Below, one piece after another: positions 34,671 to 57,131 of a stretch of 64,000 nucleotides of DNA. A program made the position numbers and the translations under genes. Source of the stretch: Nesterenkonia xinjiangensis (GTDB lineage: Bacteria > Actinomycetota > Actinomycetes > Actinomycetales > Micrococcaceae); assembly GCF_013410745.1 (NCBI RefSeq), contig NZ_JACCFY010000001.1:1364001-1428000 (forward strand), given 5' to 3'. Positions within the stretch are counted from its first letter, which is position 1; every line of letters starts with the position of its first letter. A model generated the notes under the pieces. It was not told the DNA's origin, did no database searches, and worked only from the letters and a program-made list of their open reading frames with translations.

Positions 34671-34725
34671 GGTGTGATCGTTCACCTTGTCCTGACAATC
34701 TAGGGTGACATGTCTCACAGGTCAA
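34671..34725 (-). promoter_or_regulatory. Promoter and operator before binding protein copy 5
   Basis: TTGACC (34720-34725) and TAGATT (34697-34702) on the minus strand have a 17-base spacer. The near-palindrome GGTGTGATCGTTCACC (34671-34686) follows, a CG-centred LacI-type site. The divergent LacI gene at 34818 is the natural candidate regulator. Confidence 0.6.
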
Positions 34726-34817
34726 TGATGGTGCCGCAGCCCAACTATCCCCGAAGAGATGTGGGAGAGTCCCGGATATGCTGGCCACGATCTCCGTCAA
34801 CGTGCCGAGGAGTCCAC

Positions 34818-38387: not shown

Positions 38388-38408
38388 CTGACGCTCCTAC
38401 TGTGACAG

Positions 38409-38452
38409 TTGACACACACTTTCCCTCGATACTACCGTGGAAAGCGCATTCC
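38409..38452 (+). promoter_or_regulatory. Promoter and operator of the DUF993 operon
   Basis: TTGACA (38409-38414) and TACCGT (38433-38438) have an 18-base spacer. The near-palindrome GGAAAGCGCATTCC (38439-38452) abuts the -10, covering the likely start site, as expected for a LacI-type repressor. Confidence 0.65.
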
Positions 38453-38494
38453 GACCTCATCGGCCCGCCACCACCTTCAAGGAGCCCCGATCCC

Positions 38495-39661
38495 ATGACC
38501 GAGCCCCGCGTCCTCCGCATCGCCATGAACGGCATCACCGGCCGGATGGGCTACCGCCAGCACCTGCTGCGGTCCATCCTCCCGATCCGCGACCAGGGCG
38601 GCATCACACTGCCCGACGGCTCCCAGGTGACCGTCGAGCCGATCCTCATCGGCCGCAACGAGGCCAAGATCAAGGAGCTCGCCGCCACGCACGACGTCGA
38701 GCACTTCACGACCGACCTCGACGGCGCCATCAACGACCCCTCCATCGACATCGTCTTCGACGCCTCGATGACCTCCCTGCGCTACGCGACGCTCTCCAAG
38801 GCCATCTCCGCCGGCAAGCACGTCTTCACGGAGAAGCCCACCGCCGAGAGCCTCGAGGAGGCCGTGGCCCTCGCATCCCAGGCCAAGTCCGCCGGCATCA
38901 CCGCCGGCGTCGTGCATGACAAGCTCTACCTCCCCGGCCTGGTCAAGCTGCGCCGCCTGGTGGAGGAGGGCTTCTTCGGCCGCATCCTCTCGCTGCGCGG
39001 CGAGTTCGGCTACTGGGTCTTCGAGGGAGACCACCAGCCCGCCCAGCGACCCTCCTGGAACTACCGCCTGGCCGACGGCGGCTCCATGACCACGGACATG
39101 TACTGCCACTGGAACTACGTGCTCGAGGGCATCATCGGCAAGGTCAAGTCCGTGACCTCCAAGACCGCCACCCACATCCCGAAGCGCTGGGACGAGAACG
39201 ACAAGCCCTATGACGCTGACGCCGACGACGCCGCCTACGGCATCTTCGAGCTGGAGACCCCCGAGGGCGACGAGGTCGTCGGCCAGATCAACTCCTCCTG
39301 GGCCGTGCGCGTGTACCGCGACGAGCTCGTCGAGTTCCAGATCGACGGCACGCACGGCTCCGCCGTCGCCGGGCTGAACAAGTGCGTGGCCCAGCAGCGC
39401 GCCCACACCCCGAAGCCCGTGTGGAACCCCGACCTGCCCGTCACCGAGTCCTTCCGGGACCAGTGGATGGAGGTGCCCGCCAACGCCGAGCTGGACAACG
39501 GTTTCAAGCTGCAGTGGGAGGAGTTCCTCGCCGACGTCGTCGCCGGCCGTGAGCACCGCTTCGGCCTGCTCTCCGCCGCCCGCGGCGTCCAGCTGGCCGA
39601 GCTCGGGCTGCAGTCCGCCGCCGAACGCCGCACCATCGACATTCCGGAGATCACCCTGTGA
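38495..39661 (+). CDS. Gfo/Idh/MocA-family oxidoreductase
   Basis: This 388-residue NAD(P)-dependent dehydrogenase starts at ATG 38495 with AAGGAG in front. It has LRIAMNGITGRMGYRQHLLRSI at the nucleotide-binding site, DIVFDASMTSLRYATLSKAISAGKHVFTEKPTA with the EKP lysine near residue 115, and WNYRLADGGSMTTDMYCHWNYVLEGIIG, where Asp and His fit the catalytic positions. It is larger in its N-terminal insert (LPDGSQVTVEPILIG) than classic members. It is first in a translationally coupled operon with DUF993 and isomerase genes. Substrate unknown. Confidence 0.9.
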   Translation: MTEPRVLRIAMNGITGRMGYRQHLLRSILPIRDQGGITLPDGSQVTVEPILIGRNEAKIKELAATHDVEHFTTDLDGAINDPSIDIVFDASMTSLRYATLSKAISAGKHVFTEKPTAESLEEAVALASQAKSAGITAGVVHDKLYLPGLVKLRRLVEEGFFGRILSLRGEFGYWVFEGDHQPAQRPSWNYRLADGGSMTTDMYCHWNYVLEGIIGKVKSVTSKTATHIPKRWDENDKPYDADADDAAYGIFELETPEGDEVVGQINSSWAVRVYRDELVEFQIDGTHGSAVAGLNKCVAQQRAHTPKPVWNPDLPVTESFRDQWMEVPANAELDNGFKLQWEEFLADVVAGREHRFGLLSAARGVQLAELGLQSAAERRTIDIPEITL

Positions 39662-40938
39662 GCACCCTCAGCACCGAGACCCCCGTGGCGAACGCGCAGG
39701 CCGCCGGCCTGCCCACGCTGACCCTGCCCACCCTCGAGGGCGGCACCGCCGAGTACACGATGACTGGCCAGGCCGACTCCTCGCTGGGCCCTTTCACTCG
39801 CCCTGAGAAGCCGCTGACCTCCCGGAAGGTCTATGCGGCCGCCCACGTGGTGCCGGTGATGACCGCCGACAACACCCCCGGCTCCCCCGCCCAGCTGGAC
39901 TGGGACGCCACCCTCGCCTACCGCCATGAGCTGTGGTCCTACGGGCTCGGCGTCGCCGACGCCATGGACACCGCCCAGCGCGGCATGGGCCTGGACTTCG
40001 AGGCCACCAAGGAGCTGATCCGCCGGTCCGCCGCCGAGGCCGCCTCGGTCGTCGACGCCGGCACCTACCCCGCCCTGGCCGGTCGCACCGTGCGCGACCT
40101 GGTCGCCTGCGGGGCCGGCACCGACCAGCTCGACCCCACCACGGTGGAGCCCGGCGAGGCCGGGGTCAAAGCCGTGCTGGACGCCTATCTGGAGCAGCTG
40201 GAGGTCGTCGAGGCCTCCGGGGCGAAAGTGATCCTCATGGCTTCCCGCGCCCTGGCGAAGGTCGCCTCCAGCCCCGAGGACTACCTGGGCATCTACTCCC
40301 ATCTGCTCCAGGCGGCCCAGCAGCCGGTGATCCTGCACTGGCTGGGTCCGATGTTCGACCCGGCCCTGGCCGGCTACTGGGGCTCCGACGACGTCGCCGC
40401 CGCCACCGAGACGTTCCTGACCCTGATCCGGCAGAACCCGGCGAAGGTCGACGGCGTCAAGGTGTCACTGCTCGACGCCGACCACGAGACCCAGCTGCGC
40501 GCCGCGCTGCCCGAGGGGGTGCGGCTCTACACCGGGGACGACTTCAACTATCCGGAGCTGATCGACGGCGACGAGACCGCCTACTCGGATGCGCTGCTGG
40601 GCATCTTCGCCGCCATCTACCCAGCGGCCTCAACAGCCCTGCAGGCCTACGACGCCGGCGACGCCGCCCGCGGCCGGGCGATCCTGGACTCCACCCGGGA
40701 GCTGGGCAAGCACATCTTCTCCGCGCCCACGCTCTACTACAAGACCGGCATCGCCTTCCTCTCTTGGCTCAACGGGCACCAGGCCGGCTTCCAGCTGGTC
40801 GGGGGCCTGCACTCGGGACGCTCGCTGCCGCATCTGGCGCACACCTTCGTGCTCGCCGATCAGGCCGGCCTGCTGACCGACCCGCAGCTCGCCGCCGAGC
40901 GGATGACCACGCTGCTGAAGACTGGAGGCGTCTCATGA
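39658..40938 (+). CDS. DUF993 (dihydrodipicolinate-synthase-like) protein
   Basis: This 426-residue TIM-barrel protein matches the DUF993 family, distantly related to DHDPS/NAL aldolases. Features are KVYAAAHVVPVMTADNTPGSPAQLDWDATLAYRHELWSYGLGVADAMDTAQRG, KVILMASRALAKVASSPEDYLGIYSHLL, QQPVILHWLGPMFDPALAGYWGS and KVDGVKVSLLD, where the lysine could be the Schiff-base residue. A retro-aldol step on a keto-sugar acid is a reasonable guess but unproven. The GTG start overlaps the preceding stop (GTGA), and its stop overlaps the next start (ATGA). Confidence 0.85.
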   Translation: MSTLSTETPVANAQAAGLPTLTLPTLEGGTAEYTMTGQADSSLGPFTRPEKPLTSRKVYAAAHVVPVMTADNTPGSPAQLDWDATLAYRHELWSYGLGVADAMDTAQRGMGLDFEATKELIRRSAAEAASVVDAGTYPALAGRTVRDLVACGAGTDQLDPTTVEPGEAGVKAVLDAYLEQLEVVEASGAKVILMASRALAKVASSPEDYLGIYSHLLQAAQQPVILHWLGPMFDPALAGYWGSDDVAAATETFLTLIRQNPAKVDGVKVSLLDADHETQLRAALPEGVRLYTGDDFNYPELIDGDETAYSDALLGIFAAIYPAASTALQAYDAGDAARGRAILDSTRELGKHIFSAPTLYYKTGIAFLSWLNGHQAGFQLVGGLHSGRSLPHLAHTFVLADQAGLLTDPQLAAERMTTLLKTGGVS

Positions 40939-41972: not shown

Positions 41973-44048
41973 ATGACTGCTGAAGGAACCACCCCGACGT
42001 CGGTGCTGCTGGTGGGCCTGGACGGCTTCGGCCGCCAGCATCTGCGGAACCTGAGGCGGCTCTCCGAGCTGGGCCGGGCCAGGCTGATCGCCGGCGCCAG
42101 CTACAGCGACCCCGGGCCCGAGGTCCGCGGGGACATCCCGGTCCATAAGACCCTCGCCGAGGCACGCGAGGCCGGGCACCGTCCCGACGTCGTGATCATC
42201 TCCACCCCGATCAACACGCATCATGACCTGGCGCTGGAAGCCCTGGCGATGGGCGCCGACGTGCTGCTGGAGAAACCCCCGACGGCGACCTTCGCCCAGT
42301 TCGAGGACCTGCTCGCCGCGGCGGAGCGTGCCGGACGGCGGGTGCAGGTGGGCTTCCAGTCCATCGGCTCCCACGCCCTGCCCGCCCTGGAAGAGCTTCT
42401 CAGCACCCCCGAGGCCCCCGGCGGCATCGGTGAGCTGCGCGCCGTCGGCGCCACCGGGCTCTGGCTGCGCCGAGAGGCCTACTACGCTCGGGCTCCCTGG
42501 GCGGGCCGCCGCGTGCTCGACGGAGTCCAGGTGGTCGACGGCGTGGTCACCAATCCGCTGGCCCACGCGGTGCGCACGGCCCTGCACATCGCCGGGGCCC
42601 GCGACACCGACGACGTCGCCGGACTCGCCACCGAGCTGCACCACGCCCACCGCATCGAGGCCGATGACACGTCGATCGTCTCGCTGCGCACCACCGCCGG
42701 AATCCCGGTGACCGCCGCGCTGACACTCTGCGCTCCGGAAGACCACCGGCCGCCGTGGGTGACGATCTACGGCACCGAGGGGCAGGCGCAGCTCTACTAC
42801 ACGGAGGATCGCCTCGAGATCACGCCCAACCGCGAGGCTCCGTTCAACGCGGGCGAGGCCGGACGTCCGCGCACAGTGGAGTTCGCCCGCACCGACCTGC
42901 TGGAGAACCTCCTGGACGTGCGCGAGGGCAGGGCCGAGGCGCTGCTCTCCCCGCTGCGCGAGGCCGGGGCGTTCATGCGGGTGCTGGAGGCGGTGCGCAC
43001 GGCGGAGGACCCGGCACCGATCGAGGAGCGGCATGTGCAGCAGGTGGACTCCGGGCCCGAGAGGCACCCGGTGATCCCGCACATCGAGGACTACCTCGCC
43101 CGCGCGGTGAAGGCTCCTTCGACCTTCTCTTCGCTCGGCGCCCCCTGGGCCGCTTCCGCCGCCGCCAGCGGTGAGCTGAGCCTGCCCGGAGGCCCGACGA
43201 TCGCCCAGCTCCGCACCGGGGAGGACATCTCCCCCACTGACTCCCCGCGCCCCTTCCTGGACCAGGTGCGGACCCGGGCCGGCGTCGTCGTCACCGACCA
43301 GCAGCCGCTGGACCACACCTGGCATCTCGGCGTGAACGTGGCCCTGCAGGACGTGGACGGCACCAACTTCTGGGGCGGACGCACCTACGTGCGCTCCGCA
43401 GGCCGCTACATCTGGCGCGACGACCACGGCCGCATCCTCACCCGCGCGGAGCAGATCGACGACGTCGACGACGGCCAGCGGCTGACCCAGCAGCTGGAGT
43501 GGCTCGACCGCTCCGGGGAGGCGCTGCTTCGCGAGGAGCGGACCGTCACCGTGACCGCCCGGGACGAAAGCGCCTGGGAGCTCGACGTCGCCTTCGCTCT
43601 CACGCCTGCGGTGGAGCGGCCCGTCTCGCTGGGGAGTCCGGGCTCCAACGGTCGGGTGGGCGGCGGCTACGGCGGCTTCTTCTGGCGGCTGCCCGCGCTG
43701 GCGGACGCGCAGATCTTCACGGCGGAGGCCTCCGGAGAGGAGGCTGTGCACGGCAGCGTCAGCGACTGGCTGGCGGTCTCCGGGCGGTTCGGTTCCGTGC
43801 ACGGCCCGGGCGACGCGACGTTGGTGCTGGTCTCCACGGACGAGGACCCCTGGTTCGTGCGGCACGCCGGCTACCCCGGTGTGGGCATGTCCCTGGCCTG
43901 GGACTCCCCGGTGCTGGCCGCTCCGGATGAGCCGGTGGCACGCCGGGTGCGGGTCGCCGTCGTCGACGGCCTGCTGGACCGTGCGGAGGCCGCCGCACTG
44001 GGGAGCGGACTGTCGGCAGAGCTGACCGCGACCCGCATCTCACGATGA
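41973..44048 (+). CDS. Gfo/Idh/MocA oxidoreductase fused to DUF6807 (PmoA) domain
   Basis: This 691-residue fusion has residues 1-370 as a Gfo/Idh/MocA dehydrogenase: SVLLVGLDGFGRQHLRNLRRL, DVVIISTPINTHHDLALEALAMGADVLLEKPPT with the EKP signature near 100, and WVTIYGTEGQAQLYY. Residues about 395-685 form a DUF6807 beta-rich domain: RPFLDQVRTRAGVVVTDQQPLDHTWHLGVNVALQDVDGTNFWGGRTY, GRVGGGYGGFFWRLP and DPWFVRHAGYPGVGMSLAWDSPV. DUF6807 was once labelled methane oxygenase PmoA; nothing here suggests methane oxidation. The domain may bind a carbohydrate or keto-sugar. A very similar domain is fused to the LacI regulator at 48527. AAGGAG precedes the ATG. Confidence 0.88.
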   Translation: MTAEGTTPTSVLLVGLDGFGRQHLRNLRRLSELGRARLIAGASYSDPGPEVRGDIPVHKTLAEAREAGHRPDVVIISTPINTHHDLALEALAMGADVLLEKPPTATFAQFEDLLAAAERAGRRVQVGFQSIGSHALPALEELLSTPEAPGGIGELRAVGATGLWLRREAYYARAPWAGRRVLDGVQVVDGVVTNPLAHAVRTALHIAGARDTDDVAGLATELHHAHRIEADDTSIVSLRTTAGIPVTAALTLCAPEDHRPPWVTIYGTEGQAQLYYTEDRLEITPNREAPFNAGEAGRPRTVEFARTDLLENLLDVREGRAEALLSPLREAGAFMRVLEAVRTAEDPAPIEERHVQQVDSGPERHPVIPHIEDYLARAVKAPSTFSSLGAPWAASAAASGELSLPGGPTIAQLRTGEDISPTDSPRPFLDQVRTRAGVVVTDQQPLDHTWHLGVNVALQDVDGTNFWGGRTYVRSAGRYIWRDDHGRILTRAEQIDDVDDGQRLTQQLEWLDRSGEALLREERTVTVTARDESAWELDVAFALTPAVERPVSLGSPGSNGRVGGGYGGFFWRLPALADAQIFTAEASGEEAVHGSVSDWLAVSGRFGSVHGPGDATLVLVSTDEDPWFVRHAGYPGVGMSLAWDSPVLAAPDEPVARRVRVAVVDGLLDRAEAAALGSGLSAELTATRISR

Positions 44049-44141: not shown

Positions 44142-45263
44142 ATGACCCCTGAGCAGGAGTTCCACGCGAAGCACGCCCGTCTGACAGGCATCCTCGAGGA
44201 GGCCGGGGCCGACGCCCTCGTGCTCTCCACCGCGGGCTCGCTGTCCTGGCTGCTCGCAGGGGCACGGGTCCACATCAGCCTGGCGGGCCCACCGATCCTG
44301 CGCGCGGTGGTGCACCGTGACGGGGTCGCGGTGGGGGTGTTCAGCAACGAGTCGGCACGCATCCGCGAGGAGGAGCTGTCACCTCTGGTTTCACTCCTCG
44401 ACGACGGTACGGTGAGCCTCCATGAGCTGGACTGGTACGCCGACGTCGACGACGTCCGCGCCTGGCTCCCGCAGGCCGCCGGCTGGACGCTCACCGGCGA
44501 GTCCGCCGCCGCCCTGCCGCTGCGCAGCGCCCGCGCCTCGCTGCTCGAGGTGGAGGTGGAGCGCTACCGCGCGCTGTGCCGGGCCTCCGCCGAGGCGCTG
44601 ACCGATGTGCTCGGCGAGGTCACCCCGGAGACGACCGAGCGGCAGCTGGCCGCGGCCCTGGCGCCACGGATCATCGAGGCCGGGGCGGATCCCGTGGTGC
44701 TGCTGGTCAACGGGGAGTCCCGGGCGGTGCACCGCCACCCGCTGCCCACCGATGCGCCGCTGGGCCGCCGGGCGATGGCTGTGGTGTGCGCGCGTCGGCA
44801 GGGCCTGATCGCCAATGTGACCCGCTGGGTCGGGTTCGGCGACGTCGTCGCCGGAGAGGAGGAGATGGACGCCCGCATCCTCTCCGTGGAGGCCGAGGCC
44901 TTCGCGGCGCTGAGCCCGGGCGCCCGGCTGGAGTCTGTGCTCGACACCCTCAAGGAGTCCTATGTGCGCCACGGCTTCGCCGCCGATGAATGGACGAAGC
45001 ATCATCAGGGTGGGGCCGCCGGCTATGAAGGCCGTGACCCACGCGTCTTCCCCGGGGTCCCGGACCTGATCCATGAGAATCAGGCCTTCGCCTGGAACCC
45101 GACCGGCTGGGACCGGCAGCTCGGCCTCGGGGCGAAGGTGGAGGACACCGTGGTGCTGCGCGCCGGGACCGACGGGAGCCGGATCGACGTGCTCAGCGTA
45201 GACGAGCGCTGGCCCACCGTCGAGGTGGCCGGCATCGCCCGCCCTGCGGTGCTGCGCCGCTGA
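44142..45263 (+). CDS. M24 (creatinase/aminopeptidase-fold) family protein
   Basis: This 373-residue protein has a creatinase-type N-terminal domain (LTGILEEAGADALVLSTAGSLSWLLAGARVHISL) and a pita-bread C-terminal domain (RASAEALTDVLGEVTPETTERQLAAALAP, HHQGGAAGYEGRDPRVFPGVPDLIHENQAFAWNPTG, LGAKVEDTVVLRAG). The two aspartates that normally bind metals are missing: the corresponding stretch reads VVCARRQGLIANVTRWVGFG. The His and the final Glu are kept. It is therefore probably not a metallopeptidase; like creatinase, it may catalyse metal-free C-N cleavage or another reaction. GAGGAGAAG precedes the ATG. Confidence 0.82.
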   Translation: MTPEQEFHAKHARLTGILEEAGADALVLSTAGSLSWLLAGARVHISLAGPPILRAVVHRDGVAVGVFSNESARIREEELSPLVSLLDDGTVSLHELDWYADVDDVRAWLPQAAGWTLTGESAAALPLRSARASLLEVEVERYRALCRASAEALTDVLGEVTPETTERQLAAALAPRIIEAGADPVVLLVNGESRAVHRHPLPTDAPLGRRAMAVVCARRQGLIANVTRWVGFGDVVAGEEEMDARILSVEAEAFAALSPGARLESVLDTLKESYVRHGFAADEWTKHHQGGAAGYEGRDPRVFPGVPDLIHENQAFAWNPTGWDRQLGLGAKVEDTVVLRAGTDGSRIDVLSVDERWPTVEVAGIARPAVLRR

Positions 45264-45360: not shown

Positions 45361-45424
45361 TTGACGGTCCCCAGGAGTCTCACTAACGTCGTGGTCCAAC
45401 ACCTCTGAGAAACCGGTTTCTCAG
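45361..45424 (+). promoter_or_regulatory. Promoter and 20-bp perfect palindromic operator, copy 7
   Basis: TTGACG (45361-45366) and TAACGT (45384-45389) have a 17-base spacer. Centred about 25 bases after the -10 is a 20-bp perfect palindrome (45405-45424) with the core GAGAAACCGGTTTCTC, a LacI-family operator form also present at 56284 and 57116. Confidence 0.75.
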
Positions 45425-45449
45425 CACCATGACGCGGATGGAGACCATC

Positions 45450-46745
45450 ATGTTCACCCCCATCACCCGCCCCGCCCCTCGGGGTCCACGCGCTGCGGCC
45501 CTCGGCCTCGCCGCCGCCGTCGTCGGGCTGACCGCCTGCGGCGACGGCGGAGCCACGCAGGGGTCCGACGATGACGTCACCCTGGAGTTCGCCTTCTGGG
45601 GATCCGACTATCGGCTGCAGCTCACCGAGGAGATCATCGAGACCTTCGAGGCCGCCCACCCGGGGATCACCGTGGAGGCCGCCTATGGCGACTCCGGCTA
45701 CTGGGACCAGATGGCCACCCGCACCGCAGCCGGGGACATGCCCGACATCGTGCAGATGGACGACAAGTATCTGCGCGAATACGCCGACCGTGACGCGCTG
45801 ATGGAGCTCTCCGCCGTGGACGTCGACGGCCTGGACCCGGACATCGTGGACAACGGCCGCACCGAGGACGGCCTCTACGGCGTGACCATCGGCATCAACT
45901 CCTTCGCCCTGGTGGCCAATCCGGACCTCTTCGACGAGGCCGGAGTGGACATGCCGGACGACTCCAGCTGGACCTGGGACGACTACCGGGACATCACCGT
46001 GGAGCTCAGCGAGAACCTCGACGACGGCTGGGGCGCGGTCTCGCTGAACCAGCCCGGCGCCTTCCAGGTGTGGCTGCGGCAGCACGGCGCCAACCTGACC
46101 ACCGAGGACGGCGAGCTCGGCTTCGACGAGGAGCTCGCCACCGACTACTTCCAGTACTTCCGCGACCTCATGGACGACGGCGGCATGCCCCCGGCCGATG
46201 CGCTGTCGGAGGACATGGAGCTGGGCCCGGAGCAGTCCCAGGCCGGGCTCGGACACGCCGCGCTGAGCGGCTGGTGGACCAACGAGCTGCCCACCCTGGC
46301 CAACGCGAGCGGCGCCGAGATGGAGCTGCTGCGCTTCCCGTCCGAGACCGGACAGGCCGAGGACCACGGCATGTGGTTCAAGTCCTCCATGCTGCTCTCC
46401 GCCTCCTCCGACACCGAGCACCCCGAGGAGGTCCAGGCGTTCATCGAGCACTTCATCAGCTCCGAGGACGCCGGCCTGATCTCCCTGACGGACCGCGGCC
46501 TGCCGGCCGATGAGAACGTCCGCGCCGCGGTGCTGGACGAGCTCGAGGGCGCGGACGCGCGCTCTGCGGAGTTCGTCCAGGACATCGAACCGGAGCTCGG
46601 CGAGCCGGAGCCGGTGCCCGCCATCGGGTTCTCCACGATGCGCGAGACGCTCTTCCGCTACGAGTCCGAGGTCTACTTCGACCGCCTGACCCCGCAGGAG
46701 GCAGCCGCGGAGATGATGGCCGAGATGGAGTCCTCCCTGCAGTGA
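45450..46745 (+). CDS. Sugar ABC transporter solute-binding lipoprotein (copy 7)
   Basis: This 431-residue family member has ATG 45450 with GGAG 7 bases upstream, and lipobox GLTAC (Cys 30). It has AFWGSDYRLQLTEEIIETFEAAHP, DIVQMDDKYLREYADRDALMEL, DDSSWTWDDYRDI, VWLRQHGANLTTEDGELGFD, WWTNELPTLANASG and GMWFKSSMLLSASSDTEHPEEVQAFIEHF. It is followed by a strong hairpin and then a GH43 gene and the LacI-DUF6807 regulator in the same direction. Its promoter shares an operator with the pectinase gene and the complete transporter operon nearby, so it probably binds a pectin oligosaccharide. Confidence 0.93.
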   Translation: MFTPITRPAPRGPRAAALGLAAAVVGLTACGDGGATQGSDDDVTLEFAFWGSDYRLQLTEEIIETFEAAHPGITVEAAYGDSGYWDQMATRTAAGDMPDIVQMDDKYLREYADRDALMELSAVDVDGLDPDIVDNGRTEDGLYGVTIGINSFALVANPDLFDEAGVDMPDDSSWTWDDYRDITVELSENLDDGWGAVSLNQPGAFQVWLRQHGANLTTEDGELGFDEELATDYFQYFRDLMDDGGMPPADALSEDMELGPEQSQAGLGHAALSGWWTNELPTLANASGAEMELLRFPSETGQAEDHGMWFKSSMLLSASSDTEHPEEVQAFIEHFISSEDAGLISLTDRGLPADENVRAAVLDELEGADARSAEFVQDIEPELGEPEPVPAIGFSTMRETLFRYESEVYFDRLTPQEAAAEMMAEMESSLQ

Positions 46746-46868: not shown

Positions 46869-48527
46869 ATGGACCACCCCCACCTGATGACCTCGTCCCC
46901 CGCGCCCTCCACCACGGCCGACCCGAGCACCACCCGGTCCGGGGCGACGTACTCCAATCCGATCCTCGACGCCGACTGGCCGGATCCGGACGCCATCCGG
47001 GTCGGCGAGGACTACTGGATGGTCGCCTCCAGCTTCAACCGGGCGCCGGGGCTTCCCGTGCTGCACTCCCGGGACCTCGTGAACTGGGAGCATGTGACCA
47101 ACGCACTGCTGGCCGTGCCGCCGGCACCGCACTTCGCCGTGCCTCGCCACGGTCAGGGCGTCTGGGCACCGAGCCTGCGCCACCACGACGGCGTCTTCCA
47201 CATCGTCCACCCGGACCCGGACCACGGCATCTTCGTCACCTCCGCGACGGACCCGCGGGGGCCGTGGAGCACCCCGCATCTGCTGCTGAGGGGCCGCGGG
47301 CTCATCGATCCGTGCCCAGTGTGGCACGAGGATGGCAGCGCCCACCTGGTCTTCGGCTGGGCGCGGAGCCGCGCCGGGGTGAAGAACCGGATCAGCCTGG
47401 TGGAGGTGGATCCGCAGCTGCGTGGACCGTTGGACGACGCCCGGGTCATCATCGACGGCGACGCCATACCCGACTGCACCACGCTGGAAGGCCCCAAGAT
47501 CTACCGCCGGGACGGCTGGCACTGGATCTTCGCGCCCGCCGGCGGGGTCGCCACCGGCTGGCAGTACGTGTTCCGCTCCCGGGACATCGCTGGCCCGTAT
47601 GAGCACCGCATCGTCCTGGAGCAGCATGACACCGACGTCAACGGTCCGCACCAGGGCGCCTGGGTCACCACCCCGTCCGGCGAGGACTGGTTCCTGCACT
47701 TCCAGGACCGCGGTCCCTTCGGCCGGGTGGTCCACCTGCAGCCGATGCGCTGGGGCGACGACGGATGGCCCCGCCTGGGCGAGCCGGTGGACGAGATCAG
47801 CGGCCGCCCCGTGCGTCGGTACGCGCTGCCTCATCCGCCATCGCCCGCCGGGGACGCATCCGGTGCGCCGTCGCAGCGCGAACCGTCCCGCAGCGACGGG
47901 TTCCGCAGCACCGTACTCGCCCCTCGCTGGCACTGGCAGGCCAACCCGCAGCCACACTGGATCCACGTTCGGGGGGATGGCACGATCGACCTCGCCGCCC
48001 TGCCGGCCTCCAGCGACGACCTGCGCCAGCACGGCGCTGTGCTGGGCCAGCAGCTGCCGGGCCGGGCCAGCAGCTGGACGACGCGTCTCCATCTGACCGG
48101 GGCTGTCCCCGGCGCGCAGGCAGGCCTGACCCTGCTCGGAAGCACCTATGCCTGGATCGGCCTGGAGCAGAGGCCGGACGGCACCTGGTTGACCTGCCGC
48201 ACGGGCGACGACGCCGGCGAGAACGTGGTGCACGAGGAGCCGGTCTCCTCCGCAGTGGAGCTGAGCATGGCCCACGACGACGACGCCCGAGCCACCTTCC
48301 GCTGGCGGCACCACCCGCAGGACGACTGGCACGACGTCTCCCCCGGCTTCACCGCCACCAAGGGACGGTGGATCGGGTCTGAGGTCGGGCTCTTCGCACG
48401 GTGCGTCTCCGGTGCTCAGGCCGGTGCGTCGATGCCGTCCGGTCCTGCGGACGGAGGCACGGCTCCCCGTGACGCCCGCGGTGTATTCTCTGCCGTGACG
48501 GTCTGTATGGACGGCAGGAGAGTGTGA
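46869..48527 (+). CDS. Glycoside hydrolase family 43 protein
   Basis: This 552-residue beta-xylosidase/arabinofuranosidase-type enzyme has all three catalytic positions of the GH43 propeller: the base Asp in DADWPDPDAIRVGEDYWMVASSF (near residue 40), the pKa-modulating Asp in GLIDPCPVWHEDG, and the acid Glu in TTLEGPKIYRRDGWHWIFAPAGG (near 205). A C-terminal beta-sandwich (residues about 340-552; FRSTVLAPRWHWQANP, LTLLGSTYAWIGLEQ) is typical of GH43 members acting on oligosaccharides. There is no signal peptide. AGAAGGA precedes the start, and the stop overlaps the LacI-DUF6807 start (TGATG). Confidence 0.92.
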   Translation: MDHPHLMTSSPAPSTTADPSTTRSGATYSNPILDADWPDPDAIRVGEDYWMVASSFNRAPGLPVLHSRDLVNWEHVTNALLAVPPAPHFAVPRHGQGVWAPSLRHHDGVFHIVHPDPDHGIFVTSATDPRGPWSTPHLLLRGRGLIDPCPVWHEDGSAHLVFGWARSRAGVKNRISLVEVDPQLRGPLDDARVIIDGDAIPDCTTLEGPKIYRRDGWHWIFAPAGGVATGWQYVFRSRDIAGPYEHRIVLEQHDTDVNGPHQGAWVTTPSGEDWFLHFQDRGPFGRVVHLQPMRWGDDGWPRLGEPVDEISGRPVRRYALPHPPSPAGDASGAPSQREPSRSDGFRSTVLAPRWHWQANPQPHWIHVRGDGTIDLAALPASSDDLRQHGAVLGQQLPGRASSWTTRLHLTGAVPGAQAGLTLLGSTYAWIGLEQRPDGTWLTCRTGDDAGENVVHEEPVSSAVELSMAHDDDARATFRWRHHPQDDWHDVSPGFTATKGRWIGSEVGLFARCVSGAQAGASMPSGPADGGTAPRDARGVFSAVTVCMDGRRV

Positions 48528-50518
48528 TGGGACGGGTGCTGAAGGACGGCCCGAAGATCGGCGAGGTCGCCGTGGCTGCGGGCGTCTCTCGGGCCACCGT
48601 CTCCCGAGTCATGAACGGCCAGGACACTGTCGCCCCGGACATCGCCGACCGCGTGAGGGAGGCCGCCGCGCAGCTGAACTACCGCCCCAGCACCCTGGCC
48701 CGCAGCCTCTCCCTGGGGCGCTCCAGCACAGTAGCCGTCGTCGTGCCGGATCTGCGCAACCCGATGTTCCACCAGGTGCTGCGCGGCGTCATGGACGCCT
48801 CCGAGGCGCAGGGCTACCGCACCCTGGTGGCCGAGACTGCGGACCGCACCGCCGATGAGGCCACCCTCGCCCAGGAGGCCCGGACCCGCTGCGATGCGCT
48901 CATCCTGGTGAACCCGCGCATGCCGCAGCAGACCCTGGATGAGCTGCTGCCCCAGCTGCGCCCCGTGGTGCTGGTCAATCGCACCAGTTCCCACGCGGAC
49001 ATCCCCAGCCTGGTGATCGACCACGCCCAGGGGATCCATCGGCTGGTGGAGCATCTCACCAGCCTGGGCCACCGGCACCTCGCCTATCTGGGCGGGCCCG
49101 ACGGCAGTCTCTCCGACATCCCCCGCCGGGAGGCCCTGGAGACCTCGCTGACCCGCCACCCCGATCTGCGGATCGACCAGCTGCCGGGCGGGGCGACCAT
49201 CGACGCGGGATTCGAGGCAGCCGAGCAGGTGCTGGCCTCGGAAGCCACTGCCGTGGTGGCGTTCAACGATCTGACCGCCTTCGGGCTGCTGGCTCGCCTC
49301 AACGAGTCCGGGGTGAGGGTGCCGGACGGCCTCTCGGTCACCGGCTTCGACGACATCGAGCTCGCCCGCTATGCGAATCCGGCGCTGACGACCGTCAACG
49401 TGCCGCATGCGGAGCTGGGACGCCGGGCCTGGCAGCTGCTGGCCGAGGCCATTGCCGCCGCTTCAGGCAGCACAGCTCCGGGGACGGGGCGGGGCACCGC
49501 ACCGGAGACGTTCACCCCGGAGCTCACGGTGCGCACCAGCACCGGCCCGGTGCCGCCGGCCCGGGAGCTCACCGCCCCCTCCACCGATCTCTCCGGCACC
49601 GCGCACCGGCCCGCTCGTGGATCTGCGGGCGACGACGACGGGGCCCGCTGGTCCCGGCGCGGCGCAGGCTGGCAGCTGCGGCTCGGTGAGCTGGTCCTCG
49701 CGCACAGCATGGGCGGGGAGCGGATGCCGACAGTCCACAGCCCTCGACCCCATCTGCACCCGGTGCGGAGTCTGCGTGGGCGGCTGCTGACGGACCGCAG
49801 CCCGGATGACCACCGGCATCATTACGGCGTCTCCATGACGATCCCTGATGTGGACGGCACCACCTACTGGGGCGGTCGCACCTTCGACGCCGACCACGGC
49901 CCGATGCTGTTGCCGAACCATGGACACCAGCATGTGGAGCACATGGAGACTCTCCACGGAGGGGCCACGCTGCACCAGCAGATCCGCTGGATCGACCAGG
50001 ACCAGCGCCTCCAGCTGCAGGAAAGCCGGGAGATCACCGGGACCGGGATGGCGGAGACGGAGGCCTGGGCAATGCGCTGGTCCTCCCTGCTGCGGGCGGA
50101 GCGGCCGCTGACCATCGCCAGCCCGGCGGTCCGGGGCCGCCCGGGTGCCGGCTATGGAGGCTTCTTCTGGCGCCTGGCCTCCGGCGCGGAGGTGGAGGTG
50201 ATGAACTCCGAAGGGGTTCAGGACGTCCATGGGACACCCGCCCGGTGGGTCTCGGTGGCGGTCCGCCACGACGAGCGCTGGGCGAGCCTGGTACTGGCCC
50301 AGCAGTCCGAGGACCCGTCGCCCTGGTTCGTGCGGGCCTCCGACTACATCGGGCTCGGTCCGGCCCTGGCCTGGGACGTCCCGCTGACGCTGGCCGCCGG
50401 TCAGGTGCACCCGGTGGAGCTGCTCGCCGTCGTGGTGGATCGACGGGTCGGCGCCGGCGAGGTGGACCGTCTGCTGGAGCTCGGTGAAGGCCGGGTGCGG
50501 GCTGCCCGGAGCGCCTGA
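48527..50518 (+). CDS. LacI-family regulator fused to a DUF6807 (PmoA) domain
   Basis: This unusual 663-residue regulator has residues about 8-60 as a LacI helix-turn-helix (PKIGEVAVAAGVSRATVSRVMNGQDTVAPDIADRVREAAAQLNYRPSTLARSLSLG). Residues about 65-335 are the sugar-sensor domain (VAVVVPDLRNPMFHQVLRGVMDASEAQG, TSLGHRHLAYLGGP, VVAFNDLTAFGLLARLNESGVRVPDGLSVTGFDDI). After a linker, residues about 370-655 form a DUF6807 domain (RHHYGVSMTIPDVDGTTYWGGRTFDADHG, GRPGAGYGGFFWRLA, SPWFVRASDYIGLGPALAWDVPL). Typical LacI proteins end near 340 residues. It is continuous with no frameshift. The ATG at 48527 has AGGAGAG in front and overlaps the GH43 stop. It is the best candidate to bind the AAACCGGTTT operators nearby. 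Confidence 0.93.
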   Translation: MGRVLKDGPKIGEVAVAAGVSRATVSRVMNGQDTVAPDIADRVREAAAQLNYRPSTLARSLSLGRSSTVAVVVPDLRNPMFHQVLRGVMDASEAQGYRTLVAETADRTADEATLAQEARTRCDALILVNPRMPQQTLDELLPQLRPVVLVNRTSSHADIPSLVIDHAQGIHRLVEHLTSLGHRHLAYLGGPDGSLSDIPRREALETSLTRHPDLRIDQLPGGATIDAGFEAAEQVLASEATAVVAFNDLTAFGLLARLNESGVRVPDGLSVTGFDDIELARYANPALTTVNVPHAELGRRAWQLLAEAIAAASGSTAPGTGRGTAPETFTPELTVRTSTGPVPPARELTAPSTDLSGTAHRPARGSAGDDDGARWSRRGAGWQLRLGELVLAHSMGGERMPTVHSPRPHLHPVRSLRGRLLTDRSPDDHRHHYGVSMTIPDVDGTTYWGGRTFDADHGPMLLPNHGHQHVEHMETLHGGATLHQQIRWIDQDQRLQLQESREITGTGMAETEAWAMRWSSLLRAERPLTIASPAVRGRPGAGYGGFFWRLASGAEVEVMNSEGVQDVHGTPARWVSVAVRHDERWASLVLAQQSEDPSPWFVRASDYIGLGPALAWDVPLTLAAGQVHPVELLAVVVDRRVGAGEVDRLLELGEGRVRAARSA

Positions 50519-50573: not shown

Positions 50574-52901
50574 TCAGCCGCGCCGCAGCTCCAGGGTCAG
50601 CGGCTCCTCCCCCAGCTCCACGGTGCGGCTCGGCGCCCCGTCGGCGTGCCGCCAGCCGGTTCCGGCCGTGAACTCCAGCCACCGTGACGTCCAGGCCGCC
50701 TGGGACCCGGGGCGACGGCGCAGCGTCGCGCGGGCGTGCCCCGGGTCCCAGGCGAGTTCCTCGAGGATGAGCCCTTCCGGTCCGCACAGACCGCTGACGG
50801 CGCCGGTGGACCACCTCTGGGGCAGCGCCGGCAGCAGCACGGCCTGGCCGGGCCGGCTGGTCAGCAGCATCGCGGCGACGACGGCCGGGAAACCCCCCGA
50901 GGCATCAGCGTTGAGGATGGATGACGGGTCGTGGGTGGACATCATGCTGGGGTGCCAGTGCTGCTGGGCGAGCGTGTGCACGATCCTCAGCGCCAACTCG
51001 GCCTCGCCGAGGCGGGCCGCCACCACACCGAGCTCGCACAGGCCGAAGGCCATCTGCATGCTCTCCGGCGGGTCCGACTCGCGGTAGGTGAGCCGCTGCC
51101 GCACCGTGGTCAGGGCGGCCGCCCGCATCTGCGGGGTGTCGAAGGCCTCGTCCCCCTCGGCTCCGAAGGCGTACAGGTGGGAGGCGTGCCGATGGTGCGG
51201 CTCATCAGGGAAGCCGGGATGCGCCCACTCGGCCAGCGCGCCGGCGGGGGTCAGCATCGGCGCCGGGAGGCTCTCCCGCAGCCGAGCCCAACGCCGGGCA
51301 TGCGTCTCATCGCCGACCAGCCGCCCGATCCGGGTCGCCACGACGGCGGCGTCGCGGATCGCAGCGATGTCGGAGGTGGCGTCCACGGCCAGCGGGTTCG
51401 GCGCCCGGTGCGGGGTGTTCTCCGGCGAGTAGCTGGGCACCAGATGGACGGTGCCGTCGTGGTGGTGCACGGCGGTCTCGCAGCAGCGCATCACCTCCTG
51501 GGCGAAGGACCACAGCCACGGCAGCAGGGTGGTGTCTCCGGTCGCCGAGAACAGGTCCCAGCCCTGCCGCAGCACCCAGGGCCCGCAGCCGATCCAGAAG
51601 AGGTGAGGAAATTCCACGGAGAAGTGGGTGGAATGCCCGTGGGTGCTCAGCCGAGCGGGCAGCAGCAGCCCCTCGGCGCCGAGGACCCGGCGCGCATTCT
51701 CTCGGAAATCCGGCAGGTGGCGGGAGATCAGTCGCAGCAGACTCCATCGCAGCTCCGGCATGCCGGTGGAGATCATCGAGGCGGTCGCCCCCAGCGTGAC
51801 GTTGCCGTTGAGCGTATAGTCCCCGGACCAGGCGGGAGACCGCGTGCCCTGCCACAGGCCCGTCAGGTTCGGCGGCAGCACCCCGGTGGAGGAGATGATC
51901 GTATGCCGAGAGGCCGCGTAGACCAGCTCCACCAGGGCATCTTCGGCTGCGGGCTCGCCCTGGCGGGCGGCGGCGAGCAGCTCCTCGGTGGACCGATCGG
52001 TCCAAGAATGCTCCGCGGCCTCGTGCCGCACCCCGAGGCTGAACCGGCTGCGCGCTGCCAGCACCTCCCGCGGCGTCGACAGGCATGAGGCGTTCGCGCC
52101 CAGGAGGGGGTCATGGGCCGGCGCCCCCTCCACCGTCACATGGAGCCGCAGCACGGTCTCGACTCCGGGCCGCAGGGGCAGCCGCGCGACGACGGCGCCG
52201 TCGCCGTGCCGCTCGGCCTCCGGCAAGGGGCCCACTGTCGTCTCCGCCGTCTCATGAGCTGTCCGCTCGGCGCCGACGCGCAATCGTGCCTGCCCCTCGT
52301 CAAGGAAAACGTGGGACCGCATCTGAGCGGCGGGGCCCTCTGTGGACGAATCCCCGCCCCCCTCCGAGAGTCGCAGTCCGAGCTCGCCCGAAGCCTGGGA
52401 GCTGAGCGTGAGGAGGACGCTCTGCTGACCGTGGTGCGGCTGCATCCGCAGCGTCTGCCGGCCTCGACGGGCGTCCTCCCAGCTGATCTCGGCGACGCCG
52501 GTGCTCAGATCCACGTGCCGTCGTCGGCTGCCCGGCACGGGTGCGGCCTCCGGATCGGTGATCGTCAGCCGTGCCGCCGGAACGAAGGGATCCGTCCAGA
52601 TCAGGGACCCGTCCGGGCTGTGCTCGGCGGCCGCGGCGGCCAGCAGATCACCGGCTCTCGCGGCGTCACCCTCCATCATCGCCTGCCGCATGCCCGGAAG
52701 TCGGGACCGCAGATCCGGCGCCGGACCGCGCGGATTGACCGGGAGGAAGAACTCCTCATGGGTGAGGTCCACCCGGTGCTCCCCGGGAGCCCCGTGCAGG
52801 AGGGCGCCCACCCGGCCGGTGCCCACCGGGATGCCATGCTCCCAGTCCTCTCCGGCGGAGATGCTGGTGAACGTGGCAGGGGGCGGAGATGGCGCGACCA
52901 T
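50574..52901 (-). CDS. Glycoside hydrolase family 95 protein (alpha-L-fucosidase/galactosidase type)
   Basis: This 775-residue GH95 enzyme has an N-terminal beta-sandwich starting DWEHGIPVGTGRVGALLHGAPGEHRVDLTHEEFF, then an (alpha/alpha)6 barrel with PPNLTGLWQGTRSPAWSGDYTLNGNVTLGATASMI (residues about 345-380; the LNGN motif fits the catalytic Asn pair), HFSVEFPHLFWIGCGPWVLRQGWDLF and VPSYSPENTPHR, whose Glu fits the general acid, and a C-terminal beta domain with PSSILNADASGGFPAVVAAMLLTSRPG, whose Asp fits the base. GH95 members cleave alpha-1,2-L-fucose or alpha-L-galactose, both present in rhamnogalacturonan II. It has no signal peptide and is last in the transporter operon. Confidence 0.9.
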   Translation of the reverse strand: MVAPSPPPATFTSISAGEDWEHGIPVGTGRVGALLHGAPGEHRVDLTHEEFFLPVNPRGPAPDLRSRLPGMRQAMMEGDAARAGDLLAAAAAEHSPDGSLIWTDPFVPAARLTITDPEAAPVPGSRRRHVDLSTGVAEISWEDARRGRQTLRMQPHHGQQSVLLTLSSQASGELGLRLSEGGGDSSTEGPAAQMRSHVFLDEGQARLRVGAERTAHETAETTVGPLPEAERHGDGAVVARLPLRPGVETVLRLHVTVEGAPAHDPLLGANASCLSTPREVLAARSRFSLGVRHEAAEHSWTDRSTEELLAAARQGEPAAEDALVELVYAASRHTIISSTGVLPPNLTGLWQGTRSPAWSGDYTLNGNVTLGATASMISTGMPELRWSLLRLISRHLPDFRENARRVLGAEGLLLPARLSTHGHSTHFSVEFPHLFWIGCGPWVLRQGWDLFSATGDTTLLPWLWSFAQEVMRCCETAVHHHDGTVHLVPSYSPENTPHRAPNPLAVDATSDIAAIRDAAVVATRIGRLVGDETHARRWARLRESLPAPMLTPAGALAEWAHPGFPDEPHHRHASHLYAFGAEGDEAFDTPQMRAAALTTVRQRLTYRESDPPESMQMAFGLCELGVVAARLGEAELALRIVHTLAQQHWHPSMMSTHDPSSILNADASGGFPAVVAAMLLTSRPGQAVLLPALPQRWSTGAVSGLCGPEGLILEELAWDPGHARATLRRRPGSQAAWTSRWLEFTAGTGWRHADGAPSRTVELGEEPLTLELRRG

Positions 52902-53913: not shown

Positions 53914-54870
53914 TCAGTTCTCGTAATAGACCCAGTACTTCTGCGCGATGAAGTTCACCGCGGTGAACGCGGCGATGATCACCAGCAGCAGCCAGGCCAT
54001 GGCTGAGGCGTAACCCATGTTGAAGCGGCTGAAGCCCTCGATGTAGAGGTTCAGGTTGTAGAAGAGCGTGGAGCCGGCCGGCCCTCCGGAGCCGTTGGAG
54101 AGGACGTAGCCCTGGGTGAAGGTCTGCAGCGTCCCGATGGTGGCCAGCACCAGGTTGAAGAAGATGATCGGGCTGATCAGCGGCAACGTGATGGACCGGA
54201 ACTGCCGCCACCGGGTGGCACCGTCGACGGCGGCGGCCTCGTAGTACATGGTGGGGACCTGTCGCAGCGAGGCGAGAAAGATCACCATGGGGGCGCCGAA
54301 GGTCCAGACATTGAGGATGATCAGCACGCTCAGCGCCGTGCTGGGGTCAGAGACCCACGCCGGACCGTCGATTCCGAACCAGCCCAGGAAGGTGTTCACG
54401 ATCCCCCGGGTGCCGAAGATCTGCCGCCACAGCATGACGATGGCGACGCTGCCGCCCAACAGCGAGGGCAAGTAGTACACGGCTCGGTAGAGCGGAAGTC
54501 CCCGCAGGCCTCGGTTCAGCGCGAGCGCCACCCCGAGAGCCGCGATCAGCGACAGCGGCACCGAGACCAGCGTGTAGGTGAAGGTCACGATCAGCGACTG
54601 GCCCACCCGCGGATCCCGGAAGAGCTCGATGAAGTTCTCGAGGCCCACCCAGCTGGGCGGGGTGAGCAGGTCATAGTCCGTGAACCCCAGGTACAGGGAC
54701 GCACCGAAGGGCACGATCGTGAACAGCATCCCGAGGAACCAGGGCAGCAGGAAGATGTATCCGGCCCACTGGATCGGGCGGCGCCGTCGTCGGGTCCTTC
54801 GCTGCGGCGACGGCGCCGGCCGCGCCTCGTCGGACGCCCGCTGAGGGGCCTCGGTCGCCATCACCGCCAT
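53914..54870 (-). CDS. Sugar ABC transporter permease (MalF type)
   Basis: This 318-residue subunit has an Arg-rich cytoplasmic N-terminus (RRTRRRRRPIQW) and about six membrane segments: GYIFLLPWFLGMLFTIVPFGASLYLG, PLYRAVYYLPSLLGGSVAIVMLW, and others. The EAA loop is TMYYEAAAVDGATRWRQFRSITLPLIS. It begins 28 bases after the binding-protein stop, with GGAGGAG in front. The operon order is binding protein, MalF-type, MalG-type, GH95. No ATPase gene is present. Confidence 0.93.
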   Translation of the reverse strand: MAVMATEAPQRASDEARPAPSPQRRTRRRRRPIQWAGYIFLLPWFLGMLFTIVPFGASLYLGFTDYDLLTPPSWVGLENFIELFRDPRVGQSLIVTFTYTLVSVPLSLIAALGVALALNRGLRGLPLYRAVYYLPSLLGGSVAIVMLWRQIFGTRGIVNTFLGWFGIDGPAWVSDPSTALSVLIILNVWTFGAPMVIFLASLRQVPTMYYEAAAVDGATRWRQFRSITLPLISPIIFFNLVLATIGTLQTFTQGYVLSNGSGGPAGSTLFYNLNLYIEGFSRFNMGYASAMAWLLLVIIAAFTAVNFIAQKYWVYYEN

Positions 54871-54898: not shown

Positions 54899-56239
54899 TC
54901 ATGCCAGCCCCATGGCGCTGTCGGCCGTCTCGCGAAGTCGGGCGGCGGCCTCCTGCGGCGTCAGCCGACCGAACTGGACCTCTTCGTCGACCTCGGTCAG
55001 CATGTCCTGCACTGCCGAACCTCCCGCCGGGTCCGGCCGGGACTCGGGCAGATCCTCCTCGGACAGGTCCATGAGGTACTGCATGGACTCCTGGTCGGCC
55101 TCGCTGAGGGAGTCGGCGATCTCCTCGGCGACGGCTTCGCTGCAGGGCAGGCCCCGGGTGACCCCGACGGCGGCGTTGCCCTCGGCGTCGTTGACGATGA
55201 AGTTGAGAAGGTCCAGCGCGCCTTCGACGTTCGGGGCCTCGGCACCGATGGACCAGTACATGGCTGTGTCGATCGACATCCCACGACGCACAGACTGCAC
55301 CTCGCCCGGGAAGCGGCAGAGCTGCAGCGGACCATCGACGACCTCGCCGTGGACCTCGAGGTTGTTGGTGGGGATGACCTGCCCGGCCACCCGGCCCGCC
55401 GCGATGGCGGACTCGGCGGCCGAGCTGCCGGTCACGTCGAGGAATCCTGCCGGCGGAAGTCCCCCACTCTCGCGCTGCTCCACGGACATCTCGAACCACG
55501 CGGCCAACGTCTCCTCGCTGGCGCCGAAGAGGCCGTCCTCGGTATAGAGGTCCTCCCCGGCCTGCCGCACCCAGACCACCAGGTTCTGGATGGTGGCGAA
55601 GGAGAGGTCGACTCCGTAGACCTCGTCGCCCCCGGACCGTGCGGCTTCGGTGATCTCCCGGCTGAAGTCCCAGAGATCGTCCCAGGACCAGGTCAGGTGA
55701 TCGGGGACTTCGGCCCCGTAGCTGCCCGCCAGGTCCGTGTTGATGATGAACCCGACCGTGTTGAGGCCGGCAGGGATGCCGTAGAGGTCATCGCCGACGC
55801 GTCCCAGGGGGTACGTGTCTGGCACATCGCTCAGGTCCAGGACGTCGAGGTGGTCATTGAGGTTGAGCAGCGTCCCGCGGTCCGCGTACTCCCGGAGGCC
55901 GTCACGACGCTGGTTCATGATGTCGGGGATGTCTCCGGCGGCGAACCGTGTCGCCATGCGGTCCTGGTAGGGCCCGGAGTCCGCGTAGTCGGTGACGATG
56001 GTGACGTCGGAGTGACGGCCCCGGTAGACGTCGAGCATGGCTTCGGTCTGCTCGGACCGTGCCGCATCGCCCCACCAGATCATGTTGATCGAGTCGGCAG
56101 CTCCGCCCGCGGAGGCGCTGCCGCCCCCGAACCGATCGCAGCCGGCGAGGGTCAGCGCGGCCGCACCTCCCATTCCGAGGTTGAGAAGTGTGCGTCGGGA
56201 GAGCCCCGAGCGCGCCGTGTGTCGCCGATCCTGTTCCAT
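54899..56239 (-). CDS. Sugar-binding lipoprotein with Tat signal (complete transporter operon)
   Basis: This 446-residue protein has ATG 56239 with AAGGAGG 5 bases upstream, a twin-arginine motif (LSRRTLLNLG) and lipobox LAGC (Cys 34). It is a distant relative of the seven-copy family: MIWWGDAARSEQTEAMLDVYRGRH, DIMNQRRDGLREYADRGTLLNL, HLTWSWDDLWDF, VWVRQAGEDLYTEDGLFG and VTRGLPCSEAV. IIQMD is lost. It is the only pectin-side binding protein in the window followed by its own complete permease pair. GH95 downstream suggests a fucose- or galactose-decorated oligosaccharide as ligand. Confidence 0.92.
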   Translation of the reverse strand: MEQDRRHTARSGLSRRTLLNLGMGGAAALTLAGCDRFGGGSASAGGAADSINMIWWGDAARSEQTEAMLDVYRGRHSDVTIVTDYADSGPYQDRMATRFAAGDIPDIMNQRRDGLREYADRGTLLNLNDHLDVLDLSDVPDTYPLGRVGDDLYGIPAGLNTVGFIINTDLAGSYGAEVPDHLTWSWDDLWDFSREITEAARSGGDEVYGVDLSFATIQNLVVWVRQAGEDLYTEDGLFGASEETLAAWFEMSVEQRESGGLPPAGFLDVTGSSAAESAIAAGRVAGQVIPTNNLEVHGEVVDGPLQLCRFPGEVQSVRRGMSIDTAMYWSIGAEAPNVEGALDLLNFIVNDAEGNAAVGVTRGLPCSEAVAEEIADSLSEADQESMQYLMDLSEEDLPESRPDPAGGSAVQDMLTEVDEEVQFGRLTPQEAAARLRETADSAMGLA

Positions 56240-56283
56240 GCAGACCTCCTTGTCGCTGGGGACGGATCCCCGCCACACCGGCT

Positions 56284-56344
56284 AGAAACCGGTTTCTCAC
56301 TGTGAGTGAGCGTCACGATACTCTGTGATTCAGAACACTTTCAA
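56284..56344 (-). promoter_or_regulatory. Promoter and operator of the GH95/transporter operon
   Basis: On the minus strand TTGAAA (56339-56344) and TATCGT (56315-56320) have an 18-base spacer. The palindrome AGAAACCGGTTTCT (56284-56297) lies downstream of the start region, identical in core to 45405 and 57116. Confidence 0.7.
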
Positions 56345-57085: not shown

Positions 57086-57131
57086 TGGACCCTGGAGGAG
57101 CCCCGATCTACGGTCGAGAAACCGGTTTCTC
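57086..57131 (+). promoter_or_regulatory. Promoter and operator of the secreted pectinase gene
   Basis: TGGACC (57086-57091) and TACGGT (57109-57114) have a 17-base spacer, and the 16-bp perfect palindrome GAGAAACCGGTTTCTC (57116-57131) starts 2 bases after the -10. Occupancy would block initiation directly. Confidence 0.7.

Follow-up and report, generated by a model that had tools for sequence, protein, structure and literature searches.

A 64,000-nucleotide stretch of the Nesterenkonia xinjiangensis genome, referred to here in its entirety as the window, contains a plus-strand gene (48527–50518) in which a LacI-family repressor and a DUF6807 domain are joined in one protein of 663 residues. 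The frame is unbroken from the ATG at 48527 to the stop at 50518, and the mechanically assigned start is a GTG one codon earlier. The LacI helix-turn-helix (PF00356; residues 11–55, 48557–48691) scored 53.3 bits against a curated cut-off of 27 (E 2.3e-14). The effector-binding domain matched Peripla_BP_3 (PF13377; residues 174–339, 49046–49543) over profile positions 1–167 of 167 (E 9.2e-30), indicating a complete sugar sensor, the whole of which begins near residue 67 (Peripla_BP_1 match, residues 67–311). A linker of approximately residues 344–390 (49556–49696), delimited by alignment, the full-length structural model and the spacing of the profile matches, leads to the DUF6807 domain (PF14100; residues 391–650, 49697–50476), a beta-sandwich in the model, whose near full-length match (profile positions 12–269 of 270, E 2.4e-53) scored 181.9 bits, well over the cut-off of 27. 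At E 0.001, all Pfam matches on the protein were to LacI, three Peripla_BP families and DUF6807. The initial annotation of this DNA had described a continuous frame through a helix-turn-helix, sugar sensor and DUF6807, and had noted that LacI proteins normally end near 340 residues; the open frame and the Pfam matches confirm the first point, the LacI part ends near residue 343 in agreement with the second, and the profile search removes the concern that the C-terminal part might not be DUF6807.

The third-position guanine plus cytosine fraction is high throughout the gene (LacI part 0.90, linker 0.80, DUF6807 part 0.87). The ATG shares one base with the stop codon of an upstream glycosidase gene of family GH43 (TGATG), suggesting that the two are probably translated together. 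We considered whether a separate DUF6807 product could arise from an internal start, and rejected this as a general feature, because no start with a ribosome-binding sequence was conserved across 41 distinct fused genes; a start preceded by GGAG, GAGG or AGGA lay near the linker in 11 of them, at differing positions and at the level expected by chance. Within the window itself, an internal start is possible at the GTG of residue 335, given the GGAG six bases ahead of it.

Distribution of the fusion

A scan of GTDB species genomes, from which the best 80 of 221 relatives were kept, revealed full-length fusions with 47–54% identity in Kribbella, Demequina, Cellulomonas, Sediminihabitans and Paraoerskovia (10 loci, of which L014 is frameshifted near its end), and fusions with a broken frame in Nesterenkonia PF2B19 (L006, 83%) and Demequina litorisediminis (L017, 41%). 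In a sample of 396 genomes from the order of the window, in which the best three candidates per genome were scored, there were 43 full-length matches in 41 genomes, N. xinjiangensis included, and a further five genomes carried a short-linker form whose two halves share a frame, giving 46 of 396 in all. Profile searches of the loci verified 30 of the 43 full-length matches; the other 13 rest on the span of the match and an open frame, and one of these, the second match in genome G475, was also seen by tblastn. A class-level sample of 394 genomes, scored in the same way, had five genomes with full-length matches and five with the short-linker form, including two from one family outside the order. 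The fusion is not a singleton. Profile searches of the fetched loci identified 49 open frames containing both LacI and DUF6807, of which 41 were distinct; the duplicate loci (L003, L109, L139–L143 and L145) were dropped before the tree, operator, linker and neighbor counts given below.

Within the window's own genus, DUF6807 of some kind occurred in 18 of 30 genomes, among which there was one intact LacI fusion, that of N. xinjiangensis, and one broken copy, in G001, where the fusion lies in two overlapping pieces in different frames, as in L006. A close LacI relative (E 1e-120 to 1e-125), with a match that stops short of the DUF6807 part, occurs in five more members of the genus (G006, G007, G017, G020 and G027). 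LacI-DUF6807 is an established subfamily in the order of the window and in some Kribbella-like genomes, and is rare in the window's own genus. More distantly, no full-length fusion at E 1e-75 or better was found in 240 genomes around one relative or in 249 genomes around another, each search covering at most four candidates per genome and having no positive control, which makes the negative weak; from their organism names, we take these two relatives to belong to the Verrucomicrobiota and the Bacillota, respectively. In a plasmid collection, a single place, in Nonomuraea, covered more than 80% of the query when its two pieces were joined (32.5%).

Origin and maintenance

To place the fusion phylogenetically, we built trees for each half by quick searches, with support from the Shimodaira-Hasegawa-like approximate likelihood ratio test (SH-aLRT). 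On the LacI tree (41 fused and 27 unfused rows) the fused state requires two changes, and on the DUF6807 tree it requires three, the frameshifted drafts L006 and L017 accounting for two of them. These two broken-frame loci were omitted from the LacI tree, treated as unfused in the DUF6807 tree and in the operator count, and treated as LacI-linked in the comparison of residues; in alignment A1, the L014 row ends in about 60 residues that are out of frame. The main fused groups turn up in both trees, which were compared without a formal test of agreement, and both trees fit about one origin of the fusion. At two loci, L120 and L121, an orthologue of the LacI part and a DUF6807 gene adjoin one another in different frames, and the DUF6807 sequences of these loci form the nearest outgroup of the fused domains (SH-aLRT 93 for the joint group). 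Separate neighbors that carry the nearest-outgroup domain suggest the simplest history, namely that the fusion probably arose from two operon neighbors, lacI and a DUF6807 gene, through the loss of one stop codon. The fusion in the window clusters with Kribbella and other loci, away from its own family, which suggests that the locus was transferred.

To quantify the pressures acting on each half, we estimated the ratio of nonsynonymous to synonymous substitution rates (dN/dS) for 15 pairs of sequences. In every one of these pairs the ratio stayed below 1, both for LacI (0.009–0.345) and for DUF6807 (0.065–0.504), indicating that both are maintained under purifying selection. Splits of the fusion are few, namely G586 and the drafts L006/G001, L014 and L017.

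Predicted operators and gene neighborhood

Three copies of a 16-base palindrome stand before genes of the locus. Predicted operator 1 (45407–45422), with the sequence GAGAAACCGGTTTCTC, precedes the solute-binding protein gene of a sugar ABC transporter (45429–46745, plus strand), which is the first gene after it and is followed by the GH43 glycosidase gene with a GH43_C2 domain (46869–48527, plus strand) directly upstream of the fusion. Predicted operator 2 (56283–56298), which has one mismatch, stands before minus-strand genes that may form an operon and encode a solute-binding protein (54899–56278), a permease (53914–54870) and a GH95 glycosidase (50574–52901). Predicted operator 3 (57116–57131), again GAGAAACCGGTTTCTC, precedes a plus-strand gene for a protein of 1105 residues with both pectate lyase and pectinesterase domains (57181–60498), a relative of which (60–61%) lies just downstream of the fusion in two Kribbella loci. 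With no more than one mismatch, these are the palindrome's only three sites in the 3.57 Mb genome and all lie in the pectin locus, in keeping with the earlier proposal of a pectin locus with this palindrome as its likely operator; with up to three mismatches there were seven places in the genome, compared to four for a reversed control pattern.

Similar sites accompany the fusion in other genera. Within 400 bases upstream of the LacI domain, sites of the form AAACCGGTTT with at most one mismatch numbered 43, in 23 of the 41 fused loci, against an expectation of about 0.004 per upstream region from shuffles that kept dinucleotides approximately; the loci counted as unfused had seven sites, in four of 24, one of the four being the frameshifted fusion L017. 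The predicted operators are often paired, 34–35 or 46 bases apart. The window has no site of this type in the 400 bases upstream of its LacI domain, and its site precedes the upstream transporter gene. A wider look at 31 loci, by the looser criterion of at most two mismatches to the 12-base core and with no shuffle control, found a site before transporter, GH43, Gfo or LacI genes in 24, in some cases with an intervening gene. The window has two further LacI genes (34710–35822 and 37377–38387); we assign the predicted operators to the fusion because the sites travel with it between genera. Even palindromes with a central CG are described for LacI-family factors in a regulon survey (PMC4052901), and the 16-base sites here resemble them, by sequence alone. 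The occurrence of such sites before the fusion operon or its transporter genes in most relatives examined makes it probable that the LacI half functions as a repressor. By sequence, the N-terminal 343 residues are a complete LacI repressor, probably binding AAACCGGTTT-type palindromes. That it represses a pectin regulon, and its own gene as well in many relatives, is well supported by sequence.

The neighborhoods of the fused genes were examined over 8 kb for L004–L014 where the contig allowed, and over 1.5 kb for most others. Within these stretches, a Gfo/Idh/MocA oxidoreductase gene follows the fusion directly in 23 of the 41 distinct fused genes (24 counting the frameshifted L014), and a GH43 gene directly precedes it in 11, that of the window included; neither was found in six (L004, L113, L155 and L162–L164). 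Permease and solute-binding protein genes resembling those of the window were found near many fusions. In the window, a Gfo/Idh/MocA oxidoreductase that is itself fused to a second DUF6807 domain (residues 406–676, E 1.8e-63) is encoded on the plus strand at 41973–44048, 4.5 kb upstream of the LacI fusion; its Gfo half spans 41973–43178, and its DUF6807 is about 38% identical to the LacI-linked one. An association with sugar genes is also recorded in a metagenome study, where a PF14100 gene lies in a probable operon with two beta-galactosidases (PMC5342196).

Properties of the DUF6807 domain

Modeled alone, the DUF6807 domain gave a mean predicted local distance difference test (pLDDT) score of 85.9 and a predicted template modeling (pTM) score of 0.87. 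The top PDB match in Foldseek was 3dcd, a galactose mutarotase-related protein, with weak statistics (E 2e-5, template modeling (TM) score 0.42–0.44, root-mean-square deviation 8.0), and a second mutarotase-fold structure, 4bze, scored similarly (TM 0.43–0.44), placing the galactose mutarotase/aldose 1-epimerase fold among the closest solved folds. A sequence search of the PDB found no solved relative of DUF6807 at a useful E-value. Asp428, His429, Trp448, Glu499, Arg501, Arg538, Tyr543, Trp548-Arg549, Trp600 and Arg603 are common to LacI-linked, Gfo-fused and stand-alone DUF6807 domains; in the LacI-linked set, no residue departs from this more than once. Such a polar core, kept in most copies, allows either catalysis or ligand binding alone.

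Position 431 was considered as a mark of the fusion, having His in place of Trp, and was rejected, as the unfused DUF6807 domains of L120 and L121 have His as well. Trp occupies this position in eight further unfused domains, seven in frames of 308–353 residues and one (L168) in a frame of 685 residues. His431 is probably older than the fusion, since the unfused LacI neighbors share it.

Possible roles of the fused domain

Our preferred reading, which we hold tentatively, is that the fusion is a LacI repressor of a regulon for pectin, a plant cell-wall saccharide, that carries a tethered enzyme of the pathway it controls. The LacI half would bind ahead of the transporter, GH43-LacI-DUF6807 and pectate lyase genes, at palindromes of the AAACCGGTTT type, and, by analogy with its family, would release the DNA when a pectin-derived sugar binds the sensor. 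Joined to the repressor when the stop between neighboring lacI and DUF6807 genes was lost, the DUF6807 half would be a mutarotase-fold domain on a flexible linker, acting on an intermediate that is also handled by the neighboring Gfo/Idh/MocA oxidoreductase. A pathway enzyme borne on the repressor may convert the inducer or a closely related compound. We prefer an active domain because the polar core is mostly kept, because more than a third of the fusion genomes yielded no further copy, and because of the loose linker; the long retention of the fusion in many related bacteria likewise suggests that DUF6807 probably acts on a sugar of the controlled pathway. Concerning the copies, 10 of 27 fusion genomes, some of these ten being drafts, yielded DUF6807 in fused form only: nine have a sole, fused copy (G123, G233, G539, G499, G597, G229, G778, G781 and G786) and G475 has two copies, both fused. 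The fused copy is the sole DUF6807 found in the Cellulomonas genomes of L008 and L013, for example. Five of the ten have a Gfo gene behind a fusion (G781, G786, G123, G233 and G475), and among the eight examined no Gfo was found near the fusion in three (G539, G229 and G778). Concerning the linker, 18 to 96 residues separate the two profile matches across the 41 fused genes, and in the full-length model, which is unreliable for domain contacts (pTM 0.46), segment 337–370 has pLDDT below 50. The variable linker and the poorly ordered arrangement of domains in the model argue mildly against rigid allosteric coupling of DUF6807 to the repressor.

Several observations weigh against an active, tethered enzyme. 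At a TM of about 0.4 the match to mutarotases is weak, and similar scores go to phosphorylase, lyase, galactosidase and YidC periplasmic domains. Neither Pfam nor profile-profile comparison found a sequence relation to aldose epimerases (hhalign probability 0.2% against 10 PF01263 members), and aldose 1-epimerase (PF01263) was rejected as an identification by sequence. Residue 432 is Gln in 10 of 43 LacI-linked domains, compared to His in each of 17 stand-alone domains and in all 4 Gfo-fused domains that could be read there. Asp428 is missing too in L164, and these changes suggest that some fused copies may be inactive. Of the two halves, DUF6807 shows the larger dN/dS in 12 of the 15 pairs. 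In N. xinjiangensis, the fused copy is not the sole source of the domain, since the genome also encodes the Gfo-DUF6807 protein and, at another place next to a Gfo-like gene, a third DUF6807. In the stretches examined, 17 of the 41 distinct fused genes (18 if L014 is placed among those lacking one) have no Gfo gene directly behind, and in seven of the 31 loci searched more widely (L197–L203) no convincing predicted operator was seen. The literature searched contained no reported activity for DUF6807, and we know of none.

A close rival to the tethered enzyme, and a realistic possibility, is that DUF6807 serves as a second sensor, binding a pathway sugar or keto-sugar without turnover and thereby modulating DNA binding. 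The MocR/PdxR regulators, in which an aminotransferase-fold domain modulates DNA binding, offer a comparison. The substitutions at residue 432 and the loss of Asp428 in L164 would fit a domain that binds only, catalysis could be left to the other DUF6807 copies in the window genome, and mutarotase-like folds bind sugars, weak as the fold match is. However, a second sensor is harder to reconcile with a linker of such variable length, with the lack of a fixed interface predicted for the monomer (pTM 0.46 for the full-length protein compared to 0.87 for the domain alone), with a LacI sensor that is itself complete, and with fused copies being the only DUF6807 found in the ten genomes listed above.

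It is improbable, in our judgment, that the two genes were joined only for equal expression, with no functional contact between repressor and DUF6807. Such a passive fusion would agree with the operon neighbors seen in the unfused state, with the variable linker, and with the Gfo-DUF6807 protein of the same locus, which shows that the domain readily joins its neighbors. Against this, the fusion has about one origin and few splits and is kept in 46 of the 396 genomes sampled from the order, which suggests that the linkage itself is important, and repressors are normally required in much smaller amounts than enzymes. Finally, although unfused neighbors do exist and a few draft relatives are frameshifted (L006, L014 and L017), we rule out the artefact foreseen in the initial annotation, a sequencing error or misassembly joining two genes with the fusion absent in relatives, because independent genomes of many genera have the same architecture, with purifying selection on both halves.

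Comparison with known regulators

The fusion resembles LacI-family factors, described in the regulon survey as two-domain proteins of about 340 residues (PMC4052901), in its PF00356 helix-turn-helix, its PF13377/PF00532 sensor and its likely targets among sugar-utilization genes, and differs in the additional 290–320 or so residues with a complete DUF6807 domain. The words "fused" and "additional domain" do not occur in the accessible text of that survey (PMC4052901). The initial annotation knew of no described LacI-DUF6807 regulator, and we found none in the literature searched, which included few subscription papers and lay apart from the UniProt architectures.

As a member of the DUF6807 family, the fused domain is near complete and keeps the conserved polar core in most copies; it is distinguished by its position at the C-terminus of a repressor, whereas other members stand alone beside Gfo/Idh/MocA proteins or are fused to them. 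MocR/PdxR proteins (GntR helix-turn-helix and aminotransferase fold) are likewise bacterial regulators with an enzyme-derived C-terminal domain, but they belong to another helix-turn-helix family and another fold, and the LacI fusion keeps its normal sensor too. The trigger enzymes PutA, BirA and NadR share with it a combination of DNA binding and enzyme activity on one chain, which is proposed here for the fusion; to our knowledge, none of the three has a LacI sensor.

DUF6807 has no assigned function in Pfam. In two studies, PF14100 is labeled as methane oxygenase or PmoA (PMC5342196, PMC10291797), and in at least one of them, a metatranscriptome, it is listed and used as the PmoA model (PMC10291797). 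Particulate methane monooxygenase PmoA was rejected for the present protein, which has no Pfam match to that family. Given that PF14100 is now DUF6807, the PmoA counts in that study may represent sugar-pathway proteins (PMC10291797).

A conserved fusion to a repressor with predictable operators and pathway genes ties DUF6807 to one pathway, and offers a direct route to an assay, in which the inducer would be found first and the effect of DUF6807 on it second. It is conceivable, though in our view less likely than not, that DUF6807 converts the inducer, or a keto-sugar made by the partner Gfo, at the repressor itself, which would make this protein the first of the LacI repressors to bear an active enzyme on its own chain. 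If so, the regulator would read the flux through the pathway, beyond the level of a sugar, and DUF6807 would gain its first function. Were the domain active, LacI regulators would join the proteins that combine an enzyme and a gene switch.

Additional genes of the locus

Two other features of the window were observed near the sugar genes. A Gfo/Idh/MocA gene followed by a DUF993 gene (38402–40938) has relatives (78% and 67%) adjoining the second fusion of G475 (L208, from 11972), a placement that suggests one wider sugar pathway. An M24 metallopeptidase-like protein with no NCBIfam match is encoded amid the sugar genes at 44142–45263. The arrangement of Gfo-DUF6807 and then an M24-like gene recurs in L015, from Arthrobacter gandavensis, and in L093 and L098, from relatives of the window's genus, and M24-like relatives lie near LacI or Gfo genes in L015, L115, L134 and L164.

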